Source of the DNA: Haliclystus octoradiatus
Taxonomy: Eukaryota; Cnidaria; Staurozoa; Stauromedusae; Haliclystidae
Reading direction: 5' to 3'
Assembly (NCBI GenBank): GCA_916610825.1
Contig: OU744450.1
Coordinates: forward strand, 682,001-746,000
Length of the DNA: 64,000 bases
Part shown: positions 1,399 to 49,085 of the stretch, one piece after another
How the letters are laid out: each line of letters begins with the position of its first letter
Numbering within the stretch: position 1 is the first letter of the stretch
Notes under the pieces: generated by a model
What the model was told of the DNA's origin: nothing
The model's database searches: none
What the model saw: the letters and a program-made list of their open reading frames with translations, nothing else
Made by a program: the position numbers and the translations under genes

Positions 1399-4300
1399 TT
1401 AATACCCTGCAGTCCCTCCTATGGCACCATTCTTGCGATGATCAGTCTGAGCATGCAGATAATTATCATCAGTTCGTTGGATCAATTGGACTGCTGCTGT
1501 GATTCTTCTATCGTGGCATATCGTATGGCCTCTTTTCTCCATGCTAATTTGGACGTTCTCTGGAATCGGAACAGCCTCTTCTGAGAATATGCACCCACGA
1601 TAAAGGTCAAGGGTCAGCCTAGGCATGCGCAATGCTTTCTCGACCTCAACCTTGCACATTTGATTGAGCATCAAAACCTGTAAAATATTCCACGGTGGTA
1701 AATTATGGATACTAAATTATCATCTAATCCACAATGTTTATCAGATACGATACTACGCACCCAAGTTAAGGCAGGTACAATCATGATTCCACCGGCTGAA
1801 CCAACAGCCAATCGCACAACGCCATTGCTGTCAACGCCAATTGTTGGGGACATACTTGAATATGGTCTTTTGTTCGGCTCAGCACAGTTAGGGGAACTGT
1901 TTATTGGTACACATCGAGTGTCGTCGTAGTTTTGGACGGGGTAGAAATCGCTCATGCAGTTGTTGAAGATAATTCCGGTCTTGATCGAACGGAAGCCAGC
2001 GCCATACCTGCGAGGGAGATTCAAGTATTGATGGGATAATGCCTCTTTGTTGCACTTTTTTGCTTGTTTAAGTAACAGAATGGAATACAACTTACAAGTC
2101 ATCAATACTTTCTGTGGCTGACGCTGCGTTGCCATCTTCATCAATGCATGAAACGTGCGTGGTACCATACTCAATATGATCTATCATTCGATCAGTGTAA
2201 AAACCTGGTTCATGTGTGATGTCGTCATCTATTCTACGACGGTTCATGTCTGCTGTCTCTTTGCTTATCGTCTCTTGCAATGACTGAAACAAAGTTCAAA
2301 ATCTCATCATTTCCAATGACACTCATGGTGGGCATCTGTTTTAACAACGGAAAGTCACTAACGCTTACTTTTAACGCCAAATGATTAAGAAGAAACATTG
2401 ATAATTATAATAATAATATAGGGTGAAAAAAGAGTCAAAGAATACACATTCTTTTCTGTTACTCAAGTTTCACGCAAATCACTGCGATCTTCAGACAGAT
2501 TTTTACTCAAGAAGAAACATTAATATAAATAAATGTAGCAGTCACATGGAAACATTTGACTCGAAAGTGTCGATAAATAAACGATGCCACTATTTTATAA
2601 TTACATCTACTTCTGAGCTTGAGTTTTGTTTCGAGAAAACAAAGATTTAGAAATAAATTTGACTTTGAAAAATGGGAATATTATTATTGAAACCAGTACA
2701 ATTTTCTCCAAAATCAAATACAAATATTTCTTGAAGCAAATACAAAGTATTAAAATCAGAAAATATTCTTCATAAATGTGATGATCATTTTTCAAATATT
2801 CTTACTTTGATTATTGCGATCCGAAGTTCAGGTGAATTAGCTTCCAGATCTCCAATGCGACATCGATACGACATCGCAAATTTGGTAGCCTCGATATATC
2901 GATGAAACATTGTCATCATTCGCTTTTCATCCTTGAGATCATCCTCAGAGATGTTGTAACCTATACAAACAGAATGAATTATGTAAGAGGCTGCTTCACC
3001 GAAAAGGAAGATTTTCTAATGATCCATTGCAGGCATTTTACCTTTGAGGATGTTAATGGCATGAGCAAGCAGTGCTCCTCCACCAGGGGCGGAAGTTGTA
3101 CAAAATTTCAATCCGTTTAATTCGAATCTCAACCCACGTGACACCCTTACAGTGTAATTTCGCATGTCTTCCATTGTGATAACACCGCCTCGTTCACGTA
3201 CATCTTCAACGTATAGCTCTGCTAATTTACCAGTGTATAAATCATCTGGACTATCTCTTATTATTTCTAATGTCTTTGCATAAGATTCATTATAGATCAT
3301 ATCACCACATCCCTTGAAACCACCTTCTCCATCGCCAAGTAGCTCTCTGAAAATCCAAACATGAGATGCATTAATTAACTTTCATTTTCACCATCAGCTT
3401 TTCTATCGCTTGCTAGTAACAGTAATTCCGGAGGGTTCTAGCCTGCGTCACAGACCGTGTAATCATTCACGAAAGAATAGGGTCCTATTAGGGAAGCAGG
3501 CTACGCGCGCTCATGATAGTGAAAATGACCCTAATATGGTTTGAAGCATCTCGGCCATGCAAAGGAAGAGAGAGCAGCGTTCCATATTTAACAAAATGAA
3601 ACAACCTATCTATGTAATTGCTGATCACATTACCTTAGGCCTGGATCACTTTTGAGAAGATGAGTATCGGATGGAACGCATTCCAATAGTACAGCAGAAC
3701 TTCTTCTTAATTCGAAACCATTTCTTGCTAAATCAATCGATGGTTGTACTAAACAACTCCAAGGCAATCTACCATGCTTCTGCCATGCCGAATGAAGACC
3801 GCGAACTTCTCCAGGAACACCAACTGCGTAGCCACCTGTTCGTGCAAACGAGACACATTCTCAAGTGTATATCTCATATATCAGGAGATTGGTTGTTTAT
3901 CTAGATCGAGAAAGAATTTCTAACAAGTATTTGAAGTAAAACCATTTTAGCTTTGAACATTTTCCTGTGCTTATGCGGCTCTCACGACTTAGCCTAGACA
4001 AATCCATGTTTTTGATTCATAGCGACTATACAGAGCAAACGCATAGAGACTACCAACAGCGATAATTCTGTCTAAGTTAAGCCGTAAAAAGGTGTGGCCG
4101 CTTGAAATATGTCTTTTCGTGGATCAAAAATGTTGACAAAATATGCATCTACATCTTCAGCTAAACGTTAAAACAATCATTCTAGAAGCAGAATGTTATT
4201 TGGTCTGGACGTAGAAACATCAGATGAAGAAACATGTAATACAGTTTAGTGCTTCTTGCCGTGTAACCCTGCGGAAAGAAGGTCATGAGTTCAAGCAAAT

Positions 4301-5153
4301 AGTTCATAAACTGCTTTTAAGAAGTTCAAAAAATAAACTGTTCATAAAATTTTGGGAAATTTCATGTTCATGAACCGGTTTATGGATTCAAAAATGAATG
4401 AATACAAAATAAACGGGTTCCCGGCATCGTAAAAAGATTGAGATACATATTCGTCAATTGGATTAAATTTTTGAAGGGTTACGGTCGCGCAGAGCAAAAA
4501 CATGAAAAAGAAAAACATTGAGTTGTATGTTTTTCTCTGCCATAGCAAATAAATCTCCCAAATATCCAGAACGAGATCCAGAAGAGACAAATGGACAATG
4601 CTTCACTGATGAATATTCTATTGTAGCCCTAATTGTTGTCAAAATGTTTATTAGAAATGTTTGTTTGATTTCTTTATCTTTCTCGTTACCTATTGCTCTG
4701 TTTTCACAATCATTGAGCACTCTAACATACATGACTGTGTTTACCTCCTATTATATCGTATTCTTTATTATATACTTATTATACCTAAACTAGATTGTCA
4801 CCTATAAAAACCTTTTTCCATACCATACCTCGTGTGTATTTGAGTGTGCTCTCTTGGTTGTTCGCATCGCACGTCGCAAATGAATGACAGTTGAAGGCTG
4901 CAGGCGAACAAGGTCTGTAATCATATACGAGGCATTCTTTTGTCTCTGCATCATAAACAGTCATGAATCCACCGCCAGATATGCTAATACTTTGTGAATG
5001 GACCACTCCAGAACAAAGCAGTGCTGCAATCGAGGCATCAACTGCCGAACCGCCTCGTTTTAAGATTCGCTTACTGATTTGCGCACCATAACGATTGTCT
5101 GTTGCTATGGCAGCTGAATTGTAGATGCCGCCATGGTCATTTTCATTCTCCAT
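1399..5153 (-). CDS. GGT-A: gamma-glutamyltranspeptidase-like protein, diverged class
   Basis: Seven coding exons in transcript order: 5153-4829, 3835-3634, 3346-3042, 2960-2806, 2283-2096, 2007-1761, 1677-1399. All have GT-AG borders and together give 567 codons (566 aa, close to typical GGTs). Family members cleave gamma-glutamyl bonds such as that of glutathione and self-process at a Thr. Visible signatures: SAVDASIAAL near residue 37, Arg80 in DYRPCSP, VGVPGE in exon 2, nucleophile Thr370 in GTTHVS, SSMSP and AGG motifs near the C-terminus, and a final GY. By gap-free alignment from the nucleophile, human Thr399, Asn401 and Glu420 correspond to Ser388, Asp390 and Cys409; Asp423 is kept (Asp412). 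The chosen Met lies 17 nt after a plausible acceptor, so a 5' intron is likely. No membrane anchor is visible after this Met. Intron 3 is only 81 nt. Enzymatic activity is not certain. Confidence 0.9.
2400..2508 (-). mobile_element. Short hammerhead-bearing retroposon in GGT-A intron 4
   Basis: A 109-bp insert is flanked by perfect 13-bp direct repeats AAGAAGAAACATT (2387-2399 and 2509-2521), read as a target-site duplication. On the minus strand it starts with an A-rich leader, then the hammerhead motif, then a conserved segment that ends in an (ATT)n-like tail. GGT-B lacks this insert and about 260 bp around it (difference 2314-2685), so the event post-dates the A/B duplication or was lost from B. 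The target duplication and the simple-repeat tail suggest retroposition. Confidence 0.7.
2456..2498 (-). ncRNA. Hammerhead ribozyme motif, type I, copy 1
   Basis: On the minus strand: stem I strand CTGT (2498-2495), core CTGAAGA (2494-2488), a stem-loop of CGCA pairing with TGCG, GAAA (2471-2468), a short stem III, triplet GTA, then ACAG (2459-2456), which pairs with CTGT. Only the non-conserved core position 7 differs from CUGAUGA. Catalysis is inferred from the motif only. The first position of stem II is a U-U apposition, which is unusual. Confidence 0.6.
3439..3503. repeat. Small inverted-repeat element in GGT-A intron 2
   Basis: TAGCCTGC at 3439-3446 is mirrored by GCAGGCTA at 3496-3503. 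The same unit sits in the matching intron of GGT-B (10277-10341), so it predates that duplication. The termini match those of the palindromic MITE at 34267-34339, which suggests one family. No clear target duplication remains. Confidence 0.5.
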
Positions 5154-5614
5154 AATGATGCTAATGATGCCTTGATGATAAATAATAAAAAATGTTGTAA
5201 TTCTAAATATCATCAGGATTGTTGCTGAGCAAATTGTCATTGTTAAAAAGTATAATACCGTTCTGATAAATTCAATGGACAAATTAATTAGATTTTTATA
5301 AAAATATTCATGTAACTTTTTAACTCTCTCTTTTTACCTTGCCTGAAGATAATTTTAGATTAAATCGAAACTGTTGCACCGATTACTATGTTGTTTATCA
5401 TCGCATATACCATCATGAAATTTAAATCAATAATTTATGTCACAATTATATTTGTTTGTGTCACAATGATCGGTTTTACAAATTTACAATAATAGATGTG
5501 AAATTATTTTTACAGCACGGAGATATAGTAAACAAAAACACAGATACATGAACAGTATAAAACTATTGATTGACAGTGTTCATGTGATATTTTGGATTTA
5601 AAAAATGATTTATT
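5154..5614. other. Upstream region of GGT-A
   Basis: Contains the putative 5' acceptor next to the GGT-A start and AT-rich sequence. Homology with the GGT-B upstream region ends abruptly at about 5222 (equivalent to about 11722). No promoter element is clear. A long TTG-initiated frame covering 5154-5282 in phase with exon 1 would add a hydrophobic N-terminus, but it is not shared by GGT-C or GGT-D. Confidence 0.4.
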
Positions 5615-6062: not shown

Positions 6063-6277
6063 GCGCTAGCTCTCGTGTGGTTACAAAACAGTACTGTTGT
6101 TCATAGCAAACAAGTAAAACAGAAATGTAACAATGAAGTTTACACGATTCTCTTACCTTCCTTCTTCCTATTAGAATTTCCTTTGGAAGTTTGTTTGATA
6201 GCCTTCAAATTGTAAGAATAACGTAACTCAGTTTTGAAATCAAATCATCAAATTGCGTTTTGTTTAAAAAAAAAAAA

Positions 6278-6566: not shown

Positions 6567-6892
6567 CTTTTAAACTTTTTTTCACCATTAATCTTCGTCA
6601 CTAGGTCACGTGATACTTTGAAGCTGTGTGCCCGTCATTGTGGTAGAAAAATAACACACGTTTCAGAAAACAATTATTTTGTATACTTCATTGCAACAGT
6701 AAGAGAATAGAAGTATTGTAAAACCAAACAAAAGTACGCATTTTAAATTAATTAACTATATTATTACAGATCTCATTAATCAGTTGATTATTCGTGAGAT
6801 GACAATAACTGTAATCGATTTTTACTAATTTGTTGTAAATGTTCAGCATGCTGATTTCATAACTATTTTTAAGCGGAATATTATATTACTAT

Positions 6893-11722: not shown

Positions 11723-12982
11723 TTTCTGGGCAGCTTTGGTATTTCTTCCAAAGATTGCTACATATTTTAATTCCCAGTGAGATTTGGCATTGCTTACTTG
11801 CTCATACGCGGAGAAAACGACACGTCCAATCAAATGCCGCGTACAATGCTTCTTACGTATTAAAAAATATACGTCCAATCAATATTCATCTCTTGTCTGG
11901 CAAAAAATGTGAAGGTGACCTAAAAAAATAAATGTTCTATGAAAGCAATGATGAAAGTATTTGATTCAATATGATGATTGATCGTTTGGACTGTGTCCTT
12001 TGACCTTTGCACATTCTATTGTTTTCGAAGACAAAAGAACGCATCAAACCATGCGAGATGACATAAAATATTTTGAAGTTGTCCAGGGGTCTTCAAATTG
12101 TTGAATTCATCAAAGCCACTTCGGACTTGTTCCGAGGTAAATTTAAAAGAACTGAAAAGAACTATCCCGGCAAAGAATCCCCAAGGGACTGGTATTAACA
12201 ATGAGCAATATGAAATCTACAAGTAACTCCGAAGAGGCTTAAATTTAAAAAGCATATAAATCGGGCAAGAATATAATTTAACACTATCAAAATTATGTGA
12301 TACTACGGTAAAAAAATTGGGAATCTAAATTTTTCCAAAATAATTAGTTCAGAATATTTTAGTGAATAATTTTAGACTATTTCCAATAATTCGCCAGGCG
12401 CAGAGGCTGGGACGAGCAAAGCATTGTGGGATACTCCTGTCATGAGCTCATTTCGGCCAGTGTTTTTTTGTTGTTTTTATGGTGAACTGAATAAGAAAGT
12501 TATCTAATTAATTTAAAATTATAATTGATATCGCGATAATGGAGTTAGTTGTCTGATAGTAGAAGGGTCCATATGGTTTCAATGGGACTATACACAGATC
12601 AGATTGTAGATGTGCTATATCGCGTGACCACACTTGGTGATTTGGAGGTTATAGCTCTGGTTATAGCTAGACATCAATTGTTAACCGTCGTGTTGTATAA
12701 TATAAGCATCAATCCTGTACGAAACCATTTTAGAACCGAAATAATTTTGCCTGCATTTTCGACAAATGCTACCAAAATTATACTGAAAATATGAATTTTC
12801 AAACAACCGCCCTTTGCAGACCCCTTTGAAAATCCTTGAGTTAGAAGAAGTGATTGTTTAGTGTTGTTTTCAGTACATGTGAACAGCACTTCGCCTCTTG
12901 GATCAACATCGAGCAATAGTTTTTGCTATTAGATAATATGAATATATTAATATATATAGACTATGACATGACAACAATATAG
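11723..12982. other. Unassigned region upstream of GGT-B
   Basis: AT-rich with no supported gene. 12179-12240 resembles 8040-8110 upstream of GGT-A. Confidence 0.5.
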
Positions 12983-13117
12983 GGTGAAAGAGTCAAAGAA
13001 TACACATTCTTTTCTGTTACTCAAGTTTGCTTGAGTAAAAAATCTGTCTGAAGATCGCAGTGAAATGCGTGAAACTTGAGTAACAGTAAAGGATGTGTAT
13101 TCTTTGACTCTTTCACC
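12983..13117. repeat. Inverted pair of hammerhead-repeat units
   Basis: Left arm 12983-13028 is the reverse complement of the 3' half of the hammerhead family. Right arm 13072-13117 is the same sequence in the plus orientation. Together they form an extended hairpin of about 46 bp per arm with the ribozyme core in the loop region. A family segment with a GCTCTGTC/GACAGAGC palindrome continues to about 13190. Confidence 0.7.
13044..13086 (+). ncRNA. Hammerhead ribozyme motif, type I, copy 2
   Basis: CTGT (13044-13047), core CTGAAGA (13048-13054), stem II CGCA/TGCG with loop, GAAA (13071-13074), short stem III, cleavage triplet GTA ending at 13082, then ACAG (13083-13086) closing stem I. In the genomic context the upstream inverted copy could compete by pairing with stem III sequences, which may trap the RNA in an inactive hairpin. 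Confidence 0.6.
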
Positions 13118-13190
13118 ATATATTATTATTATTCACCGCTCTGTCAAATGAAGACAGAGCCCTATATATTACCTGCTATTAGATAAACAT

Positions 13191-14100
13191 AATTTTTATT
13201 ATATAACCAAAACTTAACCAACTTTTACAACTTTTACCGTCGGCTATATAATGCCAGCTAGATGGTCGGCTGTCGGCGCACATTTAATTAGGTCATTAAG
13301 AAGTCATGGTCGCAGCTTTATCGATAAAGAAAGTATTTTTACAGTGTCTCAAAATTCGGGTTTTTAAATACATATATGCTTGCTATCAGAGAGTTACACC
13401 CAACGCTTGAAATATACCATATAATTTCTTTACTAAATACCATTTGACTTTTGGTCGTCACTACAGTGTTAAATATAATCATAGTTTATGATATAATCTA
13501 ATAGCTGGTAATCTAACTAAATTTTATACATGTATTTGCTTAATAGGGCAGAACGTGTAATAGAATCTGATAAGTCATAAACAATTATTCGTCGCGCATC
13601 ACATGCAGTCTTCGGCCTGTGGAAAACGGGCATACGTATTTAACATGTTTGTGATATAAATATATTTCAATGTCTATATTAAAGCGCTATTATCAGTATG
13701 TTGGATTAAAGGCCGCATTTAATGTATAACTATTATCTCATATCATCTCATGACAAACGAAAGATAGATGTCAATGGCTGATTTCCCCGACGTAATAATG
13801 ATGCCTTCGGTCCTGCCGAGAGGGCGAAGAAATGTAGGGCACTCAAGGTATTCCTGCTGCATTTCGATTGTGAATTTGCGATTATAGATGCGGATTGGAT
13901 ATATCTGTAAAAATAATTTCCAAGCGAAGCGAGAGCACTTTAATAGGTTATTTGTATTATACGATCCATTATTCCATAGTTAATATCAAAGACGTAACAA
14001 AACATTTTATTTACACAAATTTATACAATGTTTTGATTTCTTTCTATACTTTAAATTAAATTAAATTAAATTATCAAATCTTTGAATAAATAATTATTTT
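13191..14100. other. Intergenic, unassigned
   Basis: AT-rich sequence downstream of GGT-C. A few direct AAATT repeats occur near 14050. No gene or named element is recognised. Confidence 0.5.
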
Positions 14101-14110
14101 CAGCGTTACT

Positions 14111-23732: not shown

Positions 23733-26700
23733 TTAATACCCAGCTGGCACCCCATCTTTTCGAGGGTCACTCTTAGCATATAGCGCCCCTGATGAATCTC
23801 GTATGATAGCTTGTACAATTGCTGATAATCCACTGGTTCTAATTTCATGATTTTTCGCTTCCAATCCCTGAATCATAGCGTCTTCCATTGGCATCAACTT
23901 CTCATTTCGAATATACGTGGGAAAGAGACTGTGTTGTGGTCTGGCAAGGTTCACAGCCTCTCCTAATTCAATGCCAAATATCTTATTCATGACGATTACC
24001 TAAAATGACATGAAGCAGATATGATTTAGTGTCAAGGCCTAAAAGAAGACAAATGATGCCATATGATTAATGAATTATTACTATATTAAAGCAGCTTACC
24101 CACGCTGTTGATAGCGTAATCCTTGTCCCGCCAGATGCTCCAGACACCATTTGAACAACGCCATTGCTATCTACAGCGATATTGGGGCAGGTGGACGACA
24201 GGGGTCTTTTCCCTGGCCCAGGTTGATTAGCAACGGGCGTGGCATAACCAGAATACGAAGAGTTATGGAAGAAATCAGCTAATTCATTATTATAAACAAT
24301 ACCGGTTTCTGTTGAGCGGAACTTTGCACCGAAGCTGTAGATTAAAAACGTAAAATATTATCTCAGTATATTCACCATATGATTAGAGATTGATATATGT
24401 CAGCTCACGTGACAGCAGCAATTGATGAATTATTACACTGAGATAATCGAATTTAATCTACTATCCATAGATTATCGTGAGGACTGTGTGATGCTGTTTC
24501 TAAAGTCTAATACTCAGTATATGCAGTTTAGTTAACACTGTTAGTATCGTATTTAGAGAACATTTTTGTATCTAAGTTTGATCCATCAGGTTCGTAATAA
24601 TGCGATTTTTAACCGTCCTCTTCTTTTGTGTACAAGACGGAATAGCAACCATCGACATTGAATCAATCGACATCGTTTGCTCCGCCACTATTCTAATCCT
24701 CTATGTTTTCTGGTGCTATACGAACAGGGCTCAGACAGAGGTTAAGAAGCTTAAAATTGATGACCATGATATATGAGGTATATGATAGATGGCACAGTCA
24801 AAGTGCTGTCCAGTACCTGTACCTGTAATTGATTGTATCTGTCGCAGCAACTGCGTTTCCATCCTCATCCATAACACTGACATGCGTAGTGCCTTGGCTA
24901 TCATGCTTTAGGAAATAGTCAGAATAGTAAGACGTTTCCTGCGTTGAAGTATCGTTGATTTTCTGACGGTGTATGTCAGCGGTTGTCATACTCAATGCAT
25001 CAGTAACTGCCTTAATAATTAAATCAAACAGAATAATTAGAATAGAAATGAAATAGAAGGTGTGTGTAGTAGCTCCATTATCTTTTTATTATTTACCGCT
25101 CTGTCAAGTGACATTGAGCACTATTTATTTGCTACAAGATAGCAAATTACATTATTACTAATAGAATTATAGTAATAGTAGAAATAGAAAGGATACAGAA
25201 ATAAACTATTGGAAAATATTATTTCATTAATAGTTTATTTCTGTCTGATGATTGCTATAAAGGCATGAAACTTGAAGTTACAGTATAAGAATGTGTGGTC
25301 TCTGACTCCTTTCTATTTCTATTATGATTATTTACAGCTCTCATTGACTTTGAGCACTATATTCTTTGCTATTAGATAACATATCTAATAATAATAGAAA
25401 TATATATATATATATAGATAGACTGTATTGATATTATTGATTAGTTTTTAACTCTTTTTTCCAATCTTTTAATTGTTGCCAATCGGATTGGACATATGGA
25501 TTATTAAGGGTGTCATTATTACTATAAATCGTCTTCAAAGTTAATCCGATAATCCTTTTTCAATCTCATTTCTATCACAGCAGTCATGATTATTAAATGT
25601 ATAGCCGACTGTTAGCTGAATGCAATTGCTTTATCCTCTTAGCAGACAGTGTATTCTGATTCGTATTTATGAACTATTAAATTTTTGCGTTGTAATATCA
25701 TCTGTATATTCACTACTCACAACAAAACCATTAAAAAACATGAGATTTCACAGTGTTTTCATAGTTTCAAACATTTTCATGGCCTAAAAGGTTTGTGGTT
25801 CTAACTTTTTTTATCGAATTCAGAACGGCGTATGAAAAGAATTAAGAACGCATTCAACAATTGGATCGTATTCGGGCGTTCTGAACACCTTTTTACCCGT
25901 TCGGAACGACTATTTTAGGTAACCAAATTGTTTATAGCCGATCCGAAGGCATTCTCAACAGGACGGCGTATGAACAAGGCCTAAAAAAAGAAAAGGCTTC
26001 TCTGTTCTGACCAATGATAAATCGTGGTAGTGAATGCAAACTTGTGCGCTTTCTATCCCGATTCTTACTTCATTTATGAATTGATGGGAACTGCTAACAC
26101 CTGATACAAGCGCGGAGATCGAAGCCGTCTAATAGCCAGATAATGCCGTGGAATGAGGCTGAATTATAAACTCATTGAATTCTAATACAATCCAATGTAA
26201 ATGGGAATATGGCCAAATTGAGTAAATGGCGAATTGAATTTATACCTTTGTTATGTTCGATGGGTCAATAAAACCACTAGGGTCCCCTAGAAGGGGTCTT
26301 AATGCATAACTAAATTTGAATATTTCAACCATTCGGTGGTATGTCAATATCTTTGACGTCATATCTGAGAGATCGGATTGCTTGAAGTTAAATCCTATAA
26401 ACATACAACACAATACCAGCCTCAATCAGCTATCATGTATATACCAAAGTAACATATATTTTTGGGACATCCAAATATTGTCGTTAACCGCCCGTGACTA
26501 GTCGAACAATGGTTCACATTTTAATTTTTAAAGCTAACAGGGATTCCACAATTTCACATTTACAGAAGCCCTGAATTATAAAATATAAACGTTTATGAAA
26601 CAGGAGACATCTTTCTTTCCGTCGTGTAAACGGTAAACGTATAAGGGAATACATATATGGAACTATAGGAAGAACACATAAACAGCTTCTATGCGAGTTT

Positions 26701-29700: not shown

Positions 29701-32700
29701 CATAAAGGGGTGCGGAATACCTAGATACCCATTCTCTTACAAAAGCTTCAGCTACAACAGGAGCAGTCTGGTCAACAATCGGAATGGCCTCAACCCAGCG
29801 CGTGCAACGATCAATCATGGTTAACACATATCTACAGGTGGTGGTAATATTTGTCAATGAACAAGTGGATGCAGGTACCGTGATAATATCAAGATGTACT
29901 GTCTGCAAACGATCAGCTGGTAAATTATATGGTAAAGGTGGACTAATGGTATGGCGAGTGATTTTAGTTTGTTGGCACTGTAAACAATGTTGTACCCAAA
30001 TATTTATATCTTTTCGCATTTTAGGCCAATAAAATCTGTCATTAATTAGTTTAAAAGTAGCTGAACGGCCATAATGACCTAAATTATGAAAACTCTCAAA
30101 AACGGTAGAACGATAAGAAAGGGGAACAAAAGGACGCGGTAAATTTTCTGATGTCTCACACCACACAGAGCCTTCAACAAAATCAATAAATTCTAAATTA
30201 GAAGTATCAAATGGTATGCGCTGCTGCGCTTGAATGATTTCTTCAAGGTTGATAAAATTAAAAGAGACGGCGGAAACCGTTGAACAATGATTTGGCAAAT
30301 CGCGAGATAAAGTGTCGGCAACAACGTTACTATCACCGGGAATGTAAATAATGTCAGAAACAAATTCAGATAAAAATGAAAACTGCCGTTCTTGGCGAGG
30401 AGAATGATTATGAGCGGAGCGAGAATGCCAAGCAGCAGAAATTGGTTTATGATCAGTAAAAATTGTAACTTTAGTGTTTTCAATAATTGGGCGGAACCGT
30501 CTAACGGCTGAAAAAATAGCTAGTAATTCACGATCAAAAGTAGAATACGATAGTTCAGTTGTCGATAATTTGCGTGAATAAAAACTTAATGGTTGAGGGT
30601 TTTGTTTTTGTTCGTGTAAGACAGCACCAATAGCAAAAGCTGAGGCATCTGTAGTGATAGTATAGTCAGAAATGGAAGGATCAGGATGTGCTAAAATAAC
30701 TGCATTGTTGATAGAAGATTTAAGATTGTCGAAAGCGAGCTGATGATCGGATTGCCAAACAAAAGGTGCAGAAACATGTGAGTTACGTTGGTTTTTGGAA
30801 CGAGGCTGAGTGGCATTAGCCAGTGCTTGCAGAGGTTGAACAATGTCTGCGTAATGTGGAACAAATTTACGATAAAACCCAAACATACCAAGTGAACGAC
30901 GTAAAGAAGAATAATCAATAGGAGAAGGCAGTTCTAGTAAGTCTGATTTTGATTTTGATTTTGGTGAAATGCCTTTGGAAGTGACTTCATACCCTAAAAA
31001 ATCGACAGACGCAACTGAAAAAATACATTTTGATAGATTAACGCGTAGACCATATTCAACAAGTCTAGCGAGAACAAGTTGTAAACGGGCATCATGCTCT
31101 GCTTGACTGCTTCCATAAATTAAAATATCATCGATGTATGAAAAACAAGGTATTGAACGCAAAACAGAATTAATAAAGCGTGAAAAAGTCGCGGCACTAT
31201 TGCGAAGCCCAAATGGCATTGTTTGATAACAAAAGGCACCGAAAGGAGTAGTGATGGTTGTTTTGTTTATGTCATCAGGATGTATTGGAATTTGGTGATA
31301 GGCTTTAGATAAATCGAGACGAGAAAAAATTTTAGAGCCAAAAAGTTCATTGTTAAAAGATTGTAAATTAGGGAGAGGATAGCGATCGGGTTTAGTGATT
31401 CGATTAAGTGCCTGATAATCTCCTACAGGTCGAAAAGTGTCAGGTTCAGATTTTGGAACCATATGCAACGGACTAGCCCAAGGAGAAGTCGAAGGTTTAA
31501 TTATACCTGCATCTAATAATTTATCAAACTCTGCCTTGGCCACGGCTAATTTGCGGGGGTGTAGTCGGCGAGGTTGACAAAAAACAGGATCTCCGACAGT
31601 TTCGATGCGGTGTACGACATCGTGTGGCGGTGTGTTTTTGAAGGAAAAAGGTGTAAATAATTCGGCATGAGAATTTAAAATGTTACGCACGTTCGAAGAA
31701 AGATTTTTGGGAAAAGGAAATACGACAGACTCGACGGAAACAGAACAGGATTTTAACGGGACAGAAACAGTTGTTGTGTCGTCAATTAAAATTTGTTTGG
31801 AACAATCAAGGGTTATTTTGTGTTTGTGTAAAAAATCTATGCCTAAAATTGGTTGAGTAACTTCAGCAATTATAAATGAATGGGGGAAAGAGCGTCTTAG
31901 TCTAGGCATAGTGGCTGTTGTTGCGAGTTCACCTAGTACATTGATGCCCTTTCCGGAGGCCGAAATTAAAGATAAATTGGAAGATGCTAATGTTAAATCA
32001 TATTTTTGAGAAAGAGAAATTGGAATGATAGATACAGCAGAACCAGTATCAATAAGAAAAGCTACAGCAGGCATTTTTGGCAAAATAACAGTGACATACA
32101 TAAATAAGCCATGCTGAGGCGTCATAGGCTCAACACGGCTTAAAAGTTTTCCGGGGCCGGCATAGCGGAGACTGAATTAATTGGAGCAGGCGAGACAGGA
32201 CGGGAATTGTTTGGTGTTGCCTGATCGTTGTTTAAAAACGTTGGTGGTTTTGGACCAGGCCATTGACAAAAAGGGCGACAATATCTAGCTTTTGTACCAA
32301 AAAAAATGTGAGAGCGGCAAATTTTAGCACTCTGACCTGGTGAGTAACTTGTAATAACCGTGAATTGATCGTTATTGCGCGCATACTGAGTAGAGGAATT
32401 CGGTTGTTGATACCGAACCGCCTGAACTGGTGCAGGAGCCTGAAAAAAATGTGGATCTAAGGGTTGAGTATTTAAAAAACTAAGATTGTTAGAATAGGAG
32501 GTGTCATTACGGAAAGCGCCCCAAACAGTGTCAGCTACTTTCAAAAATTGTGGCATGGGCAATTCTGTATGGCTTATCAAAAGCTGACGAATGTTAATTG
32601 GCAAAGCATTTAGCAAACGATGTCTTACCAAATTATCAGTGGGTGCGATACCTGAAGCAGACAGCGACTGTTGAATCTTCATACAGCAGACTGATGGTTT

Positions 32701-35165
32701 TAAACCCTCCAACGAAATCGCGCCAAGAGCTTCTTCCAGTTTTTCTTGATCCGTTTTCTGCAATATTTGGAGTAATTTATTCTTCAAATCCGTGAAGGGT
32801 GTGTCTGATGAGAAGAGCTCCGTGGTGACGACGAGTGGGCCAATATTGGACGGCAGTTCAGCAACCACGTACCGAAATCTGGTTAATTCATCATGGATAA
32901 ACTTTAAGTCGAACAAACACTCCACTTGCATGAACCAGAATGTGATTTGTAATGGTAAAAATGATGGTAATTTGATCGTGACGAGACGATCGTGTTGTGT
33001 GATATGTTGATTGGTTGTATCTTGAGATTCATCTGCAACTGACATTGAATAAGCGGCTGCGTTGTTGGTTGCGGGGTCACCAATTGTAGGAGATCTAACA
33101 ACGTGAGAAGGTGATCTTCGAGGCGTAATGGTGATTTGACTCCTTGTATTCATATTAAATGAAGATCTCCGACAAGATAATATAAATTGATAATAAGTAG
33201 AACAAGAAAAGTATATCAGTGCTTGTCTGAGTGAATCTAATTAATATAATACTTTACATTGGCTTTTATATGTACATAAGAGAGGTTACCTCAAAAGGAG
33301 GATGGTCTAATATCGACTATCTCATAATGAGGCTGGTTAATATTTAACAAGATATTTAATCTACTACATATTCAAAGAAGATTGTTCCACGGTCGGATGA
33401 CACGATTGAAATATTGATGTTTTATAATATCGGATTTGGGGCAAAATGACGATGTTATCTTTAGATTATGGCCCCTCATATTGTATTTATTTATCTGGTA
33501 TTGGCAGTAATCGTTAATATTCATATCTACTAAGTTGTGTACTGTCTTATACAAAAAACAAAATCTTGTTTTAATCTCCTTAACTCAAGGGACTCTAGAA
33601 CGAACCGAACATATACTTTTTCAATTGGATTGAATCTAGATAACAATGAACTTTTATCTACACAAAAGCTCAATCCTCACACTCAAAATACATTAACATG
33701 TCAAGTATACGTCATATGGGTATCATCATCGTATGGGTATGATATGGGTATGTGTGATCCTAGTAGCAATAAAGACATGTTACGGTTTTTAAAAAGCATA
33801 CAAGAAGGTATCAAATTTATTAAACACTCTATGCTATAATTCAATACAGTAATTACAGTGATTAAGCAATTCGGCAATATGTATGGGTTTATTGCAGTTG
33901 CTCTAATATGCGCTGGAGTTGGCCGATTTTAATACACCGCTCACCCTCATTAATTAAAGGATTGCGGCGTATCAAAGGACACGGGACTTGCATCAGTCCA
34001 GCTCTGGCGTTAATGATGTATTTACCTTAATCCGGGGTCATTCTTAACAGCAAGTGATGTTGATGATGAGCTCATTGCCCTTGACATGTGAGGGCTGATT
34101 TTTATGCCTTTCCTTGCTAGGTTTATCGATGGCTGGACCAAATGGCTCCATTTTAGTTTGCCATAGCGCTCCCACGCATATCTGAGGCCACGGATTTCAC
34201 CTGGTACACCCACCGCCAGACCTCCTGGACACAAGAGAAAATAGATGACCCAAGTCCGGTGGAAATTAGCCTGCACGCAGACCCAAATCTTTTTTTGACT
34301 TACTAATCGTCAAAAAGATTTCGGTCTGCGCGCAGGCTAGGTGGAAATGTACAGATATATATTAGAGTAAAATAGAAGTACTTATGTAGTCTTTGCTGTT
34401 TTTAATAGTGCGCGATGCCATTTATGCAGAGCTGTTTAATAATAAATATAAATGGAAAAAATCAGACATTCATATATTTGCTACTAAGTCAGATTGACTG
34501 ATGTATTACAGTAGTAGCAAATATGAATGTCTGATTTTTGCGTTCGTTTGTTATATATTATAAACATAGTATAGATGATGTGGCATAGGGCATAGCATAT
34601 AGTTTTGGGCAATAATTACAGATATTACAACCAACATTTCTTTGTCTCAGCTGATCTCTTTTTGATGTAGGTCTTACCAGGTCTTACCTTTTAAAGATTT
34701 GCTAGGGTCTGGGTTGTACGTGTCACTTCTAAGGGATGCAGGGCCAGTTTCTCTGTAGTCTATCACAACGGATCTCTTCAGTTTTGCATCGTACACTGTC
34801 ATAAAACCACCCCCACCGATCCCAGTTGAATGGATCTGTACTACACCACAGCATATTAATGCAGCAATTGCCCCATCAACGGCACTTCCCCCTTCAGATA
34901 GAATAGTTTTGCCAATATCAGAACAGTAATTGCTGTCTGTTGCAACTGCTGCTTTACTGAAGCGATAGGCTGATGAGTCAGTGATAGCTGGAGGGGCAGA
35001 CGTTGTTGAATGCAACGCTTCGTCGTTTTTATCAGACTCTTTCTTCCATTGCACAATGGATATGATTAAAGCTATCGCAAGAATAGCAATGACAATTGCC
35101 AATATAAAGAATATCTTTCGTTGTTGTCTGAAATTAGAAAAGAAAGATATCATTGGATCAGTCAT
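23733..35165 (-). CDS. GGT-E: gamma-glutamyltranspeptidase, canonical pocket, intron 2 invaded by transposons
   Basis: Exons in transcript order: 35165-34688, 34224-34026, 27756-27569, 27292-27176, 26394-26246, 25010-24823, 24334-24100, 23999-23733. The joined frame is 607 codons (606 aa). It is a type II membrane protein by appearance: a short basic-hydrophilic N-terminus, then a hydrophobic segment at about residues 18-39. Arg138 sits in the canonical RETGP context. Predicted nucleophile Thr418 (GTTHVS) is followed by TDTIN, NNELADF and SSTCP, which keep the donor-binding Thr, Asn, Glu and Asp lost in A-D. Exon 3 is split by an extra 276-nt intron; its two parts sum to 305 nt, the size of the single exon in A-D. 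Intron 2 is 6.3 kb because of a SINE, a LINE relic and a Gypsy element. The exons show no damage. Confidence 0.9.
25089..25385 (+). mobile_element. Tandem hammerhead-repeat unit in GGT-E
   Basis: Two direct copies of a segment containing TTTAC-GCTCT and TTGAGCACTAT, near 25089 and 25327 (period about 238 bp), flank one hammerhead motif. The second ends in GCTATTAGATAAC, also seen near 13177 and 12926. The layout recalls the tandem terminal repeats of Penelope-like elements or retrozymes, but no protein is encoded here. It lies in the intron upstream of exon 24823-25010. Confidence 0.5.
25241..25283 (+). ncRNA. Hammerhead ribozyme motif, type I, copy 3
   Basis: CTGT (25241-25244), perfect core CTGATGA (25245-25251), stem II TGCT/GGCA with loop ATAAA, GAAA (25267-25270), short stem III, triplet GTT ending at 25279, then ACAG (25280-25283). 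Stem II differs in sequence from the other copies yet still pairs, with one G-U. Confidence 0.6.
27870..28235 (+). mobile_element. tRNA-derived SINE, family 1, copy 1
   Basis: The head has an A-box-like GGTTAAATGGCAGAGC and a perfect B box GGTTCAAATCC. A body of about 250 bp follows, ending in a strong hairpin (28169-28194, CCACTCCTC pairing with GAGGAGTGG) and the segment GTAGGGCGAC. A second copy in the opposite orientation is at 48668-49006. Located in GGT-E intron 2. Confidence 0.75.
28382..28665 (-). repeat. 3' LTR of the Gypsy element
   Basis: A 284-bp direct copy of 33085-33368, bounded by TG and CA on the minus strand, next to the purine tract. Confidence 0.92.
28979..32125 (-). CDS. 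Gypsy pol polyprotein
   Basis: 1048 codons from the first Met. In order: aspartic protease (LIDTGS near residue 26), reverse transcriptase with YIDDIL in the middle of the first half, RNase H (TDASAFAIGAVL, FTDHKP), an integrase HHCC zinc region (HxxxH then CLQC) and the integrase core with LDII, TDRGSNFES and LVERMH. No internal stops or frameshifts. The pol frame is open upstream of this Met and overlaps the end of gag in the -1 frame, so expression by frameshifting is likely; no canonical slippery heptamer is obvious. All catalytic motifs look intact, so the copy may be autonomous. Confidence 0.95.
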   Translation of the reverse strand: MTPQHGLFMYVTVILPKMPAVAFLIDTGSAVSIIPISLSQKYDLTLASSNLSLISASGKGINVLGELATTATMPRLRRSFPHSFIIAEVTQPILGIDFLHKHKITLDCSKQILIDDTTTVSVPLKSCSVSVESVVFPFPKNLSSNVRNILNSHAELFTPFSFKNTPPHDVVHRIETVGDPVFCQPRRLHPRKLAVAKAEFDKLLDAGIIKPSTSPWASPLHMVPKSEPDTFRPVGDYQALNRITKPDRYPLPNLQSFNNELFGSKIFSRLDLSKAYHQIPIHPDDINKTTITTPFGAFCYQTMPFGLRNSAATFSRFINSVLRSIPCFSYIDDILIYGSSQAEHDARLQLVLARLVEYGLRVNLSKCIFSVASVDFLGYEVTSKGISPKSKSKSDLLELPSPIDYSSLRRSLGMFGFYRKFVPHYADIVQPLQALANATQPRSKNQRNSHVSAPFVWQSDHQLAFDNLKSSINNAVILAHPDPSISDYTITTDASAFAIGAVLHEQKQNPQPLSFYSRKLSTTELSYSTFDRELLAIFSAVRRFRPIIENTKVTIFTDHKPISAAWHSRSAHNHSPRQERQFSFLSEFVSDIIYIPGDSNVVADTLSRDLPNHCSTVSAVSFNFINLEEIIQAQQRIPFDTSNLEFIDFVEGSVWCETSENLPRPFVPLSYRSTVFESFHNLGHYGRSATFKLINDRFYWPKMRKDINIWVQHCLQCQQTKITRHTISPPLPYNLPADRLQTVHLDIITVPASTCSLTNITTTCRYVLTMIDRCTRWVEAIPIVDQTAPVVAEAFVREWVSRYSAPLYVITDRGSNFESEFMHEVGKLIGFLKLRTTAYHPQTNGLVERMHRTLKSILKTANTSWYDTLPSALLALRVWPDDDGISPYELLTGLKPLIPRVCIEEKALLTSHHLLQTLQEHFKTVKFRPPANKRTIASYVPPELNKCRRVWIRVDRPRRPLEAPYTGPFEVISRHERYYVIKRGDTTDTVAINRLKPVIESLPSTPFDGTDVSDENINNDNVPLHPNVVTTRSGRRVTFNPNPFCIYY
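32140..33153 (-). CDS. Gypsy gag protein
   Basis: 337 codons. The C-terminal part carries a C-x2-H-x9-C-x3-C box (CRSH...CRPFC), the CHCC arrangement I associate with CsRn1-type Gypsy elements, rather than a CCHC knuckle. The frame opens at a Met inside the 5' LTR: the first 23 codons are LTR sequence and the next codons read through the primer site. A second in-frame Met lies at residue 37 (33045), beyond the primer site, and may be the real start. The stop overlaps the pol frame. Confidence 0.85.
   Translation of the reverse strand: MNTRSQITITPRRSPSHVVRSPTIGDPATNNAAAYSMSVADESQDTTNQHITQHDRLVTIKLPSFLPLQITFWFMQVECLFDLKFIHDELTRFRYVVAELPSNIGPLVVTTELFSSDTPFTDLKNKLLQILQKTDQEKLEEALGAISLEGLKPSVCCMKIQQSLSASGIAPTDNLVRHRLLNALPINIRQLLISHTELPMPQFLKVADTVWGAFRNDTSYSNNLSFLNTQPLDPHFFQAPAPVQAVRYQQPNSSTQYARNNDQFTVITSYSPGQSAKICRSHIFFGTKARYCRPFCQWPGPKPPTFLNNDQATPNNSRPVSPAPINSVSAMPAPENF
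33085..33368 (-). repeat. 5' LTR of the Gypsy element
   Basis: 284 bp, starting TGTAGTAG at 33368 and ending CTCCTACA at 33085 on the minus strand, followed after two bases by the primer site. Appears identical to the 3' LTR. Confidence 0.92.
34267..34339. mobile_element. 73-bp near-perfect palindromic MITE with 9-bp target duplication
   Basis: TAGCCTGC at the left and GCAGGCTA at the right, with arms of about 30 bp that pair almost fully. GGTGGAAAT directly flanks both ends (34258-34266 and 34340-34348). It lies about 40 bp upstream of the exon 2 acceptor of GGT-E. The same termini occur at 3439 and 10277. Confidence 0.85.
34455..34539. mobile_element. Palindromic MITE in GGT-E intron 1
   Basis: Left arm 34455-34487 (AAAAAATCAGACATTC...) and right arm 34511-34539 (...GAATGTCTGATTTTT) form a stem of about 30 bp with one 2-bp bulge. 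Confidence 0.7.
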
Positions 35166-36264: not shown

Positions 36265-37946
36265 ATATCCCGTGAGGTTAAAGTGGTTTCATAATCTCAA
36301 TCGAATTTCATGTTTTAAACCGATGAAATTATTTAAGACTATGATAGATGTATGATATATGTTATAAAACATTTTAAACCATCAATTTATATTCGTATAT
36401 AGGTCGGATCAGTGATATAGGTCCCAGCATACGTCCCATGCAGACTATATGTCAGTAATTCAGGGGCGGATCCAGGAAAAAAGCTGACTATCGCTTTGGG
36501 CGCTCCTGTGAGAGGGGCGAAGCCCATCTCTATCTGGGGGTCCAGGGGCATGCTTCCCCGGAAACATATTTTAAAATAAAGCTGTATTTAATTTGACAAT
36601 AACAAATCAACAATCAAAAAGAAAAATGCATTATTCTGTGAGCTAGCGTAATTCATAATGTAGTAACTAACAGTAACAAGACATGTAAATATATATTAGC
36701 AATATGATAAATTAGAGTTGATTAGTATTATATTATTGAATTGGAAGAATGTTTAAATTTACGAGAAAAAAAGGAGGAGCATGGTGTAATAGCTTCAACA
36801 AATCGAATCAATAACCGGGTCTGTTGTTTTTACTTAAAATTGTTTCGTGGCAGGAGATAGTCGATCGTCTTCTGCTTGACAAGCAGTTAATTTTGCAGAT
36901 CAGCGAAAGAGCAAATCCGAAGTCGTAATAGCTTGTTCTCTTATACTTTTTCATTACGACTATAGTAACCAATACTTTCTCACATGTAACTTTAACATTT
37001 TCAAACCATAATCTGTTCTCTTCGATAGAGAGATCATTATTTATCACTATCAAACAGCACGTCAAATCTTTCAACACTGTCTTCGCCATCTTGTTTGGTG
37101 CACGAAATGGTTCATACGGCGTAATCACGGCGTCATTTTTCATGTCTACATCGTGATCGATTTTAGTGCTTCACTGCAGCGGCATGGTGCTAAGCAACGA
37201 TCGTCTCATGCAGCATATCCCAAATTCCAATCCCTCATCTAGTGATATCATTGGCTTAAAGACGTTCCGCTTGAATTCTGCTGCATGAGAAATGACGTAG
37301 GCAGTGTCGCTCAAAAATTATGAAGAGAGCGTGTCTGGCTGCCCTGTTGACACTAGCAACATATTCCCACAGGGGACACGCGTGGAGTTACGTTAAACTA
37401 CATATAAACGTAAAAAGCAAATCGTCGGCGTTTGCACATTTTTGATTGCGTCGAATGGGATTAATGGACAGGGACATCAGACCAGGAGCCCATTGACGGG
37501 GGTCGGAAATACAGAATATTGAAAATAAAATACTGAAACTCAATGGGTAAACAGAATATTCAACAGGCTGCATGGAGTCATGCGCAGTAGCACCCTGTCC
37601 CGTCTGATATTTTGGCCACATCTGAATTAAATCTGAATCTCGCACGATTGACTGTACTGCGGTTTGATTTGTATTTCAAACTCAACTTGACTTTGAGATT
37701 TCTGATGGCGGCCAGAAAAATGGCGGTCTTGTCCGAAAGTAATGAGATTAAAGTTTCAAAATAACAGCTTTTGACAATAGTCATCGTCATATAATATAAT
37801 TTGTGTGGATACAAAGTTCTTATCCTGGTCATCGTAAAATTCCAGTACAGTTGATGTAACACTTATCAATTATTTGCACGTCTACGTTGTTACTTATCAA
37901 CGAACAGTCTAACAGAGACAGAGTACACGGTGTATTTTTAAATAGC

Positions 37947-40900
37947 CAGAGCTTCCAACCTGGAATTTTTTAAAAGAGGGAGGACACCAAATTTTCCTGA
38001 CAAATTTTGCGTGATTACTATACTATTTGTATTTTTATCGCGAACCAAGGCTTGGTGAAATTTCTACCTTAATAAATTGTCAAAGAACTAAAAGTAGTAC
38101 TTAAAAGAGTTGAAAGTTGCAAGAAAGCTCAAAGGCACAATATAGTAGGATACCCATGTAACAATTGAATATAAGTAATATCATTGATAGATAGTCTACT
38201 CAACGCAAATGAAGTAATACTGTACAGTACATATAAATCAATCAATCGTAACATAAGATCAATTTATGGATTTTTTAATTTTAACTTTACAGTTACTGTA
38301 ATTTATTTCTTCTTTCTGTAGCTACCATGCTTTTCATTGTAATCACGGGTTGCCTTTTTACACTTCTCCAGAAGTTCTTTAGAAGGCTTCCATTGATAGC
38401 ATGGTGTTAAGTTTTCTGGTATATTCATTTTGATGAGCATAATCGAAGCTAGGGTTTTGCCAGTGTCCAATGATGGCCGGAAATCCGTTTTGTTTCTCCC
38501 AACCAACGAAAAGACACGCTCTTCACCAGCATTACTGTGAGGGATTGTTAAAATGGACAACGCAACTTTTGCTAGATTGGGGTACACATTTTGTAAATAA
38601 GCCCACAATATATCCATCCTATGATATTGTGTGATCACTTGATCGTTTGCATCTACCTCTACTTTTACAAGAGCGTCATCCCACGTAGATGTTGGTATAC
38701 ACTCTTTTTCAAGAACCTTATAAGCAAGGAACTCTTCCTCCAACACATCCATGATTTTGGGGTCAACCAAACTGTTACCGTGGATTTGAGGGAGCTGTTC
38801 CATTGCTGTTGTGACATTGTCAAACGATGCAGCACCTCTGAATTGGAAGTCAACAAATTTGCAATTGTTGATAAGCATATTTTCTAACGGGAGCCACTTC
38901 TTACAATACTGAAATGAGTTCAAGTAAAAAGCTCTAACGCTTGAATAAAAGGTATCAACTTCGTTTTCTGTGATATCTCCATTTTCAAACAGCTCTCTCA
39001 ACCGTTGCTTTGTTTTAAAGCCGATTGCTAAGAATTCATCTTCTTTCTGATTACCCAGTTCCAAAGATAGCGTTTGATAAGAGCCACCTTTCTGCTTCTC
39101 TTCTGTCAGTTTATCGGGATTTACAAATTTTAGAATCAGTTTCTCCATAAACTTGTCCATTTGTTCTTTCAATAGATGCAGAAGCGGATCCTCCCTCTGT
39201 AAAAATTTATTGAACACACAAAATCCTGTTAGGCACGAATTGAAAAACCATAAATATAATTCCGTCATTGGATTACTGAAAGCCTTTGCTAGCCTCTGGA
39301 ATCGTGCTTGAGGATGATCCTCTGATGCAAAGTATGACTTTAATCCTTCGTACTTTTTCAGTTCTCTATCAACACACTGCTCTAAACTCAGCCATCTGAC
39401 AGAAACATGCTTAAGTATTGATTCATAATCAGAATCACAAAACTCAAAATACTCCTTCAAGCTGTTTTTTCTTTTAGTCGACTTGTCGAACCAGAAATAC
39501 AGGTCAACAAGGTGGTCTTCCACATCAAATTGACAAATTTTGGAAAATTGGGTAGCACCTTTTAGTGAAGCATTGTGAATAATGTGGCAATGACATCCAG
39601 CAATGAATACATTATTGTTCTTTTGCAACACCCTGCTCTTTACCGAGTTGTGCTCCCCAATGTTGGCGTTTGTATTGTCCACCCCAAGTGCGGTGACATT
39701 TTTCCAAGAAATGTCATGCTCAGCAAAAAGTTTGTCTACACTTGAAAAAATACTTTCTGCAGTTGCTGATGATTTTCCACTTATAAGGTTGATATCGACA
39801 AACTTTGTCATAATTCGGTTGTAATTTACATCAAAAATACGAACGGTAATGGGGTACATTTTATCAATACTAGAGTCATTTGTTCCATCAATCATGAAAC
39901 TAAAAGGATTCTGCTTCATTTGAATGATAACATCCTCTTTCAATGCTGCCCCTACACAATTTACAATTGCAGACGTCTTTGTTTTTGCGCAGGAAAATTT
40001 TTCAGCTGCCTTAGAGCCTTTGAATTCCTGCTTGATAAACATTGTTAAATGATCAGCAAGGCTAAAAAATGTATTATGCTGCACTATCATCATTGCCATT
40101 CTCACTTCTGCTAGAATTGAAGGATGAGAAGACACAGTTTTCTCAACTCGCGGTCGACTTTTACTGAAGAATGCAGAAATCCTTGAGCCCTTTGCATGCT
40201 TTTCATTGTTCTTGTGTTTTGGAGTTGCTGCAAAAGTCAAGAGTAAAATATAATTCAAGTAAAAATGTATTTCAAACAATGACATTATAGTTAATATCTG
40301 AATTTGAGAATTTATTTGCTTTGAATATTCATACAAACAAAAACATTGACAAGAACGCAAGACAAAGAAAAGATAGAGAAGCAATATTGCTTCGATATTG
40401 GAGCCAAATATTGTGGCTTCATTAGGTTCGAAAACAAAGATTACGGTGTACATTCTAAATAACTAAAAATTTAATTTAATTGTAATTTACCTGCATGCTT
40501 CTCTATGTCATTGATCCCTCCCCGAGAACATGAAAGCACAGTGTTACAATAAGTGCAGTGAAACTTGTACTCAGCACTAACAACAGCTTGCTTTGAACAA
40601 GGCTGAACAAATTGATATTTAGAACACCAATCGCTGCTAAATCGTGTTAAGTATTTTTTCTTCTTTGCAAGTGGTTCTTTAGAGCTGGACGAACTTTCCT
40701 CATTGTCAATGACATCGTCTACGTCAGAACTTTCGACTTCAGAATAATTAGCGTCAATAGAATCATTTTCGGATAAATAATCAGCCATCTTGCAATATTT
40801 TGTTTGATCGTGCTGCTACGCAACCAGAAGTAGTGCAATGAATGTTTTGATAGTGAGATTGGTACCAAAATAGAGATTACATCATCTTCAGAAAAGGTGG

Positions 40901-45600: not shown

Positions 45601-46594
45601 GTACTATATTAATATATCATATCATAACTAATATTTTGAAATATATTGAATGTTTGAGAATTATTAAGATTTGAAAAATCAATTTCTTATTCAACGAATT
45701 GATTAAAATTAAAGCTGATAAATACATGTATATATGATAATCATATCATAGACAGTGGATCACTAAGCCTCACTATCATCAATTATTACTGCAGCTGATT
45801 GAGTGAGCTCCTTTCCTTACTTTCCTGATTAATGTAGGTTATAGACTATGATCAATGACTTTAGAAAATATAGACTAGCCTATTCTATGTGTACAATCTA
45901 TTCATGTTTTGATGTTATATTGATATTATCATATCTTACTATTCAAAGCTGAATTAGATTACACCATACTTTATGTTAATTTTTCAAATATCTTCCCTTA
46001 CCCTGTCCAATATTCAATATTAGCTATTTAAAAATACACCGTGTACTCTGTCTCTGTTAGACTGTTCGTTGATAAGTAACAACGTAGACGTGGAAATAAT
46101 TGATAAATATTACATCAACTGTACTCTACGATGACCAGGATAAGAACTTTGTATCCACACAAATTATATTATATGACGATGACTATTGTCAAAAGCTGTT
46201 ATTTTGAAACTTTAATCTCATTACTTTCGGACAAGACCGCCATTTTTCTGGCCGCCATCAGAAATCTCAAAGTCAAGTTGAGTTTGAAATACAAATCAAA
46301 CCGCAGTACAGTCAATCGTGCGAGATTCAGATTTAATTCAGATGTGGCCAAAATATCAGACGGGACAGGATGCTACTGCGCATGACTCCATGCAGCCTGT
46401 TGAATTTTCTGTTTACCAACTCAATGGGACAAACGGGAAAATAATGAATACGTTATTTACCAACTTAAGGAATACGATAATAATAAAATAAGAATCAACG
46501 TTGAGGCTCAATAATATGAAAATAAAGCAATTTTTGTATTTTCTTTTAAATGCTGACTGTCGCTTGCGCGACAGTTGCGACGGATCCTCCCCTG

Positions 46595-48667: not shown

Positions 48668-49006
48668 GTCGCCCTACCGAAGGCACCCGTACCACTCCTC
48701 TATTTCTAGATGAGTGGCTTTTTCGCTGAGAGCAATGATTTTAAACGCTCTTTGTTGATCTCAGCCGCGACACTGCAGATCAATTTCAACAGATTTCATG
48801 GCAGATAAGTCTTGATTGTCAATGCGCAACGATGCGCCGCAGCTACTCACAATGCAATTCTCTCTGGACCATTCCATCATTCCATCCGCCATCCTCAGAT
48901 GGTACTCATTTGATGTTTCAGATAAAGTCAAGGCTGAGTTGACCTTAGGGGGATTTGAACCACAGTCGATCAGATATGATCCAATTTGAAGTGTCAAGGA
49001 TCATAT
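48668..49006 (-). mobile_element. tRNA-derived SINE, family 1, copy 2
   Basis: Reverse-complement copy of the 27870-28235 SINE. It has the B box GGTTCAAATCC, a closely matching body, the terminal hairpin (weakened by two changes) and GTAGGGCGAC. The 5' head is truncated or diverged upstream of the B box. Confidence 0.75.
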
Positions 49007-49044
49007 ATGTATATAGGAGATATATGTATGTTTTTCATTTAATA

Positions 49045-49085
49045 CTGTCTGATGATCGCATAAAGCGTGAAACTTGAAGTCACAG
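49045..49085 (+). ncRNA. Hammerhead ribozyme motif, type I, copy 4
   Basis: CTGT (49045-49048), perfect core CTGATGA (49049-49055), stem II CGC/GCG with loop ATAAA, GAAA (49069-49072), short stem III, triplet GTC ending at 49081, then ACAG (49082-49085). A family tail with GAATGTGTAGTCTTTGACT and an (ATT/TAA)n tract to about 49180 follow. This is the copy closest to the textbook core. Confidence 0.65.

Follow-up and report, generated by a model that had tools for sequence, protein, structure and literature searches.

Hammerhead ribozymes in short Penelope-like insertions of Haliclystus octoradiatus, and insertions that begin at the predicted cut

A 64,000-nucleotide stretch of the genome of the stauromedusan Haliclystus octoradiatus (assembly GCA_916610825.1, 262 Mb in 33 contigs; contig OU744450.1, positions 682,001 to 746,000), referred to here as the window, holds four type-I hammerhead ribozyme motifs. 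These copies, c1 to c4, lie at 2456..2498 on the minus strand and at 13044..13086, 25241..25283 and 49045..49085 on the plus strand, with cuts predicted after 2460 (minus strand), 13082, 25279 and 49081. They share the layout CTGT / CTGA(A,A,T,T)GA / stem-loop II / GAAA / C-loop-G / T-H / ACAG, and the conserved core (CUGANGA / GAAA / U-H, with the 15.2-16.2 pair) is intact in all four. The ribozymes of c1 and c2 are of the type found in element family A; in c3, a U-A pair replaces C-G in stem II. Reading the four sequences bears out a first-pass annotation of the window, which had placed motifs with these parts at these positions, paired CTGT with ACAG as stem I in each copy, listed the triplets as GTA, GTA, GTT and GTC, and confined core variation to position 7. 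The stem I that it had called compact is indeed the CTGT/ACAG helix, but full-length elements add an outer helix (CATT/AATG or similar, by reading of the sequence) beyond an internal loop.

A covariance model built from 18 hammerheads elsewhere in the genome, with c1 to c4 left out and close relatives included, retrieved exactly these four copies from the window (E 2.2e-15, 1.1e-15, 9e-16 and 1.2e-16 for c1 to c4; next match 0.29), and they again topped the list with filters off. A loose hammerhead pattern gave 12 matches in the window against 3.4 expected from shuffles, four of the 12 being one coding repeat of gamma-glutamyltranspeptidase (GGT) genes. Genome-wide, the loose core pattern matched 2,815 times against 838 for the reversed control. 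A strict pattern with CTGT/ACAG, which leaves stem II and position 17 free and fixes the rest of the core, matched 2,553 times against 0. Because of this strict count and the specific covariance-model matches, a chance origin of c1 to c4 is rejected. The Rfam covariance search that the first-pass annotation had proposed as a check gave no window hammerhead, whether at gathering scores or with E relaxed to 10, and the Hammerhead_1 model (RF00163) found none in 12 related loci either; its best score there, 16.4 bits against a threshold of 34, went to a hammerhead of canonical appearance. Taken literally, this is the outcome that the annotation had named as refuting its proposal. We read it as a limit of the Rfam model, since the stems show compensation, position 17 is not G in any of 44 distinct sequences and insertions start at the predicted cut.

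Drift of stem I and the core without compensation, the other outcome named as refuting, is the opposite of what is seen, as the stems vary with compensation. In the 18-sequence alignment, 92.4% of cells are paired against 81.5% in shuffles, and two-sided changes occur in 9 of 11 pairs (0 of 500 shuffles as high), although pairing had been required in the scan that supplied 5 of the 18 sequences, which favours the structure. Three helices with an open stem I are thus supported by covariation. In a free-stem sample among the matches listed, 91 of 102 cells at positions 10.2-10.4 are paired, where shuffles give 86.3 and reach the observed count in 4 of 5000 cases; the signal is modest because the stem hardly varies. 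The percentages of a 48-sequence table chosen for pairing were not used. Position 17 is A in 26, T in 16, C in 2 and G in none of 44 distinct sequences among 100 matches listed.

The U-U that opens stem II had been described as unusual and possibly damaging. It is instead the commonest state of 10.1-11.1, present in 26 of 34 distinct stem II sequences among 100 matches listed (U-A 3, U-C 2, A-U, G-C and C-U 1 each), and it seems not to abolish activity, as both families with a cleavage footprint carry it. Stem III is very short and near-palindromic. Of 21 distinct stems, 18 have a self-complementary inner pair, compared with 13.7 in shuffles (p 0.005); in most of these short stems that pair is unable to form within one molecule. 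This modest signal fits cleavage as dimers.

The likeness of the four copies extends beyond the ribozyme. The first-pass annotation had grouped them as one repeat family, and they are related; the homology, however, exceeds 43 nt (70-85% over 67-147 nt) and separates two subfamilies, with c1 and c2 nearest to element family A and c3 and c4 nearest to family C. Self-comparison of the window gave 85% over 132 nt for c1-c2, 73% over 147 for c2-c3, 80% over 91 for c3-c4, 77% over 96 for c1-c4, 70% over 117 for c1-c3 and 82% over 67 for c2-c4. Intact 2.5-kb elements found elsewhere in the genome are arranged as tandem units with one open reading frame (ORF) of about 720-740 codons. A hammerhead lies in the pseudo-long terminal repeats (pLTRs) at both ends, as in all four element families examined, and the predicted structure of the ORF contains a telomerase-like reverse transcriptase (RT). 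The first-pass annotation had placed the hammerheads in a dispersed retroelement family and left its class open; the former is supported, and the class is now settled as Penelope-like. At E 0.001 the ORFs of families A and B match no Pfam family; relaxing the limit to E 10 adds only two weak, unrelated ones, and a sequence search of solved structures with the element ORF gave no match. Two scans of viral contigs for stretches encoding a relative of the ORF were negative.

Each window copy corresponds to part of a pLTR. c1 is a whole short pLTR insertion of 109 bp (2400..2508, minus strand), spanning family A pLTR positions ~198-299, from the start-like site discussed below to the first 3' end. 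It is flanked by a 13-bp target-site duplication, AAGAAGAAACATT, at 2387..2399 and 2509..2521, and two bases at its 5' end can be assigned equally to the insertion or to the duplication. c2 has a right arm (13031..13202, plus strand; family A pLTR 198-369, 93.7% identity) and a head-to-head left arm (12973..13028, minus strand; 239-294, 92.9%). c3 (25210..25385, plus strand; family C pLTR 492-654, 75%) follows a second pLTR tail piece on the same strand (25073..25175; 581-681, 78%), forming a partial tandem, while c4 (49027..49122, plus strand; family C pLTR 497-597, 88%) ends in a TAA-rich microsatellite. Identity of the four copies to the pLTRs of coding elements is thus 75-94%, and tblastn at E 1e-4 found no match to the family A or B ORF in the window. 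Judged by these alignments, c1 to c4 are short, ribozyme-bearing stubs of Penelope-like retrotransposons.

Two other origins bear on the window copies. The inverted arms of c2 (61 nt, 90% complementary) recall a palindromic DNA transposon, of the miniature inverted-repeat kind, whose terminal repeats resemble a hammerhead by chance. Such arms, however, occur in some copies only and with differing lengths, coding Penelope elements bear the same sequence, and covariation of the ribozyme type is present; this origin has a next to negligible probability. For c2 itself, a miniature inverted-repeat or foldback reading is rejected, as its arms end at different points and its sequence occurs in coding elements. 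It is also very unlikely that the motifs belong to non-autonomous retrozymes, small non-coding hammerhead tandem repeats that spread via RNA circles, even though a 90-bp hammerhead satellite and canonical-looking hammerheads with G-C at 10.1-11.1 exist elsewhere in the genome. The window copies are single or head-to-head, agree in sequence with pLTRs from coding elements and terminate close to the same 3' sites, and none is a tandem array of small units. For the window, then, the retrozyme reading is rejected, its copies being single, head-to-head or, with an older tail, in partial tandem.

The boundaries of the Penelope stubs recur across the genome, as seen in loci fetched for their hammerheads (several clipped at the ends; L001-L008 and L010 left out as overlapping others). 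Sixteen of 40 matches to the family A pLTR start at 197/198 and 9 of 25 to the family B pLTR at 185/186, positions that correspond to the A or the first T of TTTTTC-ATTGAG. Most 3' ends are at one of two sites, 298-302 or 369-381 in family A and 282-284 or 358-361 in family B. At L011, L014, L016, L017, L018, L019, L020 and L022, one arm runs to the first 3' site and the other to the second; the arms of c2, ending at 294 and 369, are similarly unequal. Among 100 matches listed, hammerhead neighbours within 5 kb comprise 35 cases: 25 divergent, 4 convergent and 6 on the same strand. The base before ATTGAGTAAAAAATCTGTCTGAAGATC differs from the element's C in 145 family A copies, and in the 100 of these that were listed, duplicates not removed, it is G in 59, A in 26 and T in 15. 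An extra 5' G on complete retrotransposon copies is a known consequence of cap copying, and the G before the start-like ends is likely such a copied cap. Because of this G and of the position TC-A-TT, which we take to resemble the initiator consensus, we infer that the A of TTTTTC-A-TTGAG is a transcription start inside the pLTR.

If RNA cut by the ribozyme is then copied, some insertions are expected to start exactly at ACAG. The position of the cut was predicted before the test, which used one fixed downstream anchor in family A. A base other than A precedes ACAG at 46 family A places, all read with 60 nt of upstream sequence. Unrelated or inverted-tail sequence adjoins ACAG at 42 of them, which are junctions of 31 distinct forms; the other 4 are ribozymes in which bases have changed. 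One base downstream there are 10 places with 2 junctions, and two bases downstream 10 places with 5. One base upstream there are 22 places, 13 of which were read, by our reading as 8 junctions and 5 ribozymes; the 9 unread comprise 8 between the read ends of a satellite array and C1:25413573. Cut-site insertions that follow an A fall into this upstream class, where by our arithmetic about 8-10 are expected. Family B has 13 places with 12 junctions, in 10 distinct forms. In several head-to-head pairs (L074, L076, L110, L117 and L118), both arms reach CTGT/ACAG with filler between them. Together, these junctions are indirect genomic evidence of germ-line cutting by the ribozyme and of cut RNA that can act as a template.

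The base before the 31 distinct family A junctions is T in 13, C in 10 and G in 8, without an excess of G. This bears on whether the ACAG ends could mark a second transcription start, no cut being involved. The start-like ends at ATTGAG do point to possible initiation of transcription within the pLTR, yet copied caps would add G, and G precedes 59 of 100 listed start-like ends against 8 of 31 distinct ACAG ends (Fisher p 0.002). In this comparison one of the two patterns leaves out A and the other C, and the listed start-like ends may include duplicates. The position is, moreover, that of the cut predicted ahead of the test, and a second start is extremely unlikely.

Another possibility is that the stubs derive from Penelope-like elements but owe their ACAG ends to RT stops or to an end-joining preference, the hammerhead being perhaps inactive. 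Filler and microhomology occur at the joints, most of the counted copies keep the ribozyme, and reads from PAc, a Penelope-like element of Anolis, are reported to lack cut ends (PMC11167929). Against this, an RT stop at stem I should, as we reason, fall before ACAG is copied and not after it. In family A the peak is confined to a single base (42 junctions, with 2 and 5 at the next two), family B has the same end in 12 of 13 places, though the neighbour control covers family A only, and in several pairs both arms extend to CTGT/ACAG with filler between. The core, position 17 and the stems are also conserved as a ribozyme requires. Such an origin of the ends is therefore unlikely, if less so than the others considered here.

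Several observations nevertheless weigh against germ-line cleavage and copying of the cut RNA, in addition to the limits just given for the G comparison and the neighbour controls. Seven family A junctions are identical CTTT/ACAG palindromic joints, where overlap leaves the end ambiguous (one form among the 31), and six loci with one common upstream sequence represent a propagated copy. In family B, TA lies beyond the cut in 4 of 6 opposite arms, which by our reading also fits an end 2 nt upstream. The 42 cut-site ends compare with 906 sites that have an intact GAGTAACAG before the same anchor, part of them satellite. One decayed family A copy, L100, has G at position 17, and the minimum-energy structure was, by our reading, the full hammerhead in 0 of 7 single copies folded. 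The PAc hammerhead is reported to have needed protein in vitro, to have been dispensable for insertion and to have had no RNA reads beginning or ending at the cut (PMC11167929). As to the element protein, a C-terminal GIY-YIG endonuclease is a candidate domain. A GIIY...YIG motif is visible by eye in the family B ORF; PF01541 matches 1 of 40 family members (26.2 against a cut-off of 22.6) and not the element's own ORF in Pfam. The isolated C-terminus gave a low-confidence fold prediction (predicted local distance difference test score 37.6), and no GIY-YIG chain appears among the 50 structure matches listed, where RT chains fill the list.

The propagated junction is found at L068, L082, L088, L089, L090 and L105, where stub and flank were copied together. 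Separately, L112, L113 and L114 (C7:9730074, 9737085 and 9744096) share one cut-site junction at 7,011-bp spacing, apparently as part of a larger tandem duplication.

Cut-site ends make up 7 of the first 100 tail copies listed on contig 1, and uncut RNA seems to be the main template. The element RNA would start within the pLTR, at the A of TTTTTC-A-TTGAG, so that in family A the hammerhead would occupy about +15 to +57 and the cut would follow about +53. A fraction of this RNA would cut itself, perhaps as a dimer, which the near-palindromic stem III would fit. cDNAs from the cut RNA would end at that point, giving insertions that begin exactly at ACAG. The short copies left behind would often be two joined head to head; because of their exact 5' ends and the preceding G, we infer that two sense templates were copied to their 5' ends and then joined. 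Penelope stubs, an internal start, a hammerhead cut and copying of the cut RNA together form, in our judgement and with high confidence, the best explanation of the sequence record. With somewhat less assurance, we consider it rather probable that short Penelope insertions form a genome-wide record of RNA 5' ends, some capped (with a copied G) and some hammerhead-cut (without G bias), that cutting takes place in the germ line, that cut RNA templates both target strands and that stubs can seed a 90-bp satellite. Insertion breakpoints may then distinguish capped from cut templates and, wherever a species has young Penelope copies, would offer a gauge of past cleavage that needs nothing but its genome sequence.

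Other hammerhead-like repeats accompany the stubs in this genome. A 90-bp tandem satellite with a family A hammerhead in its monomers lies at C1 about 38.0554-38.0928 Mb (L139 1000-3000 and L140 1-1800, matches of 97% and 95%); the two ends of the stretch were read, and continuity of the array between them is an assumption. It was perhaps born from a short Penelope stub, and a retrozyme reading is kept open for it. Hammerheads of canonical appearance whose stem II opens with G-C and whose stem III is self-complementary (CACGTG, CATGTG) occur at L024 4227, L026 4164, L027 4431 and L057, and are possibly retrozymes. A separate repeat, CTGATGACTTGTRTATGCGAAATATATGTA, fits the loose hammerhead pattern without convincing stems and recurs at 21-44 kb spacing (G000 C1:1904096, 1925545, 1968490 and 2012788).

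Genes and transposons mark the assembly as eukaryotic. The remainder of the window holds several copies of the GGT gene on the minus strand (1-21300 and 34674-56808, recognized by eye from ORFs, with one exon tested in Pfam). A direct repeat pair of 285 bp with 100% identity (28381-28665 / 33084-33368) surrounds a gypsy-type pol ORF (28979-32176, minus strand) and is read as the LTRs of a recently inserted element. A hAT-type transposase ORF at 38303-40462 lies between inverted arms (37546-37946 / 46023-46417) of 291 and 103 nt that are 97-99% complementary.

Type-I hammerheads of Penelope-like elements were already known (Cervera and De la Pena 2014; Lunse, Weinberg and Breaker 2017), and the present ones share with these minimal hammerheads the topology, the tiny helix III, the pLTR location, the tandem units, thousands of dispersed copies and a stem III that is largely self-complementary, as expected for dimers. 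They differ in the genomic cleavage footprint and may differ in that stem II usually opens with U-U; dimer cleavage was described for Penelope hammerheads by Lunse et al. 2017 and for newt and viroid hammerheads (PMC6155905). The insertion-end footprint, its contrast with G-marked ends and the 90-bp satellite were not found in searches of open-licence papers, with mention possible in Cervera and De la Pena 2014 or Lunse et al. 2017.

PAc of Anolis (PMC11167929) likewise has tandem units with pLTRs, one RT ORF and a hammerhead near the pLTR/ORF junction, together with internal RT initiation at two sites, AT-rich targets, and cleavage and extension of both target strands. In PAc, however, the ORF begins at hammerhead stem II, whereas here the hammerhead precedes the ORF, and no PAc reads ended at the cut, whereas here insertions do begin there; uncut RNA as the main template would be in line with PAc, where cleavage is unneeded for insertion. 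The Penelope elements of Adineta vaga (PMC3846280) share inverted pLTRs, an optional tail on one arm, palindromes at the joint, short target duplications and an initiator-like promoter, but their authors proposed self-priming on an antisense template, where joined sense templates appear to be involved here. Metazoan non-LTR retrozymes (PMC7229834) also carry type-I hammerheads in small, low-GC non-coding repeats; they are, however, tandem repeats of 150-450 bp with canonical hammerheads, whereas c1 to c4 are stubs of coding elements.

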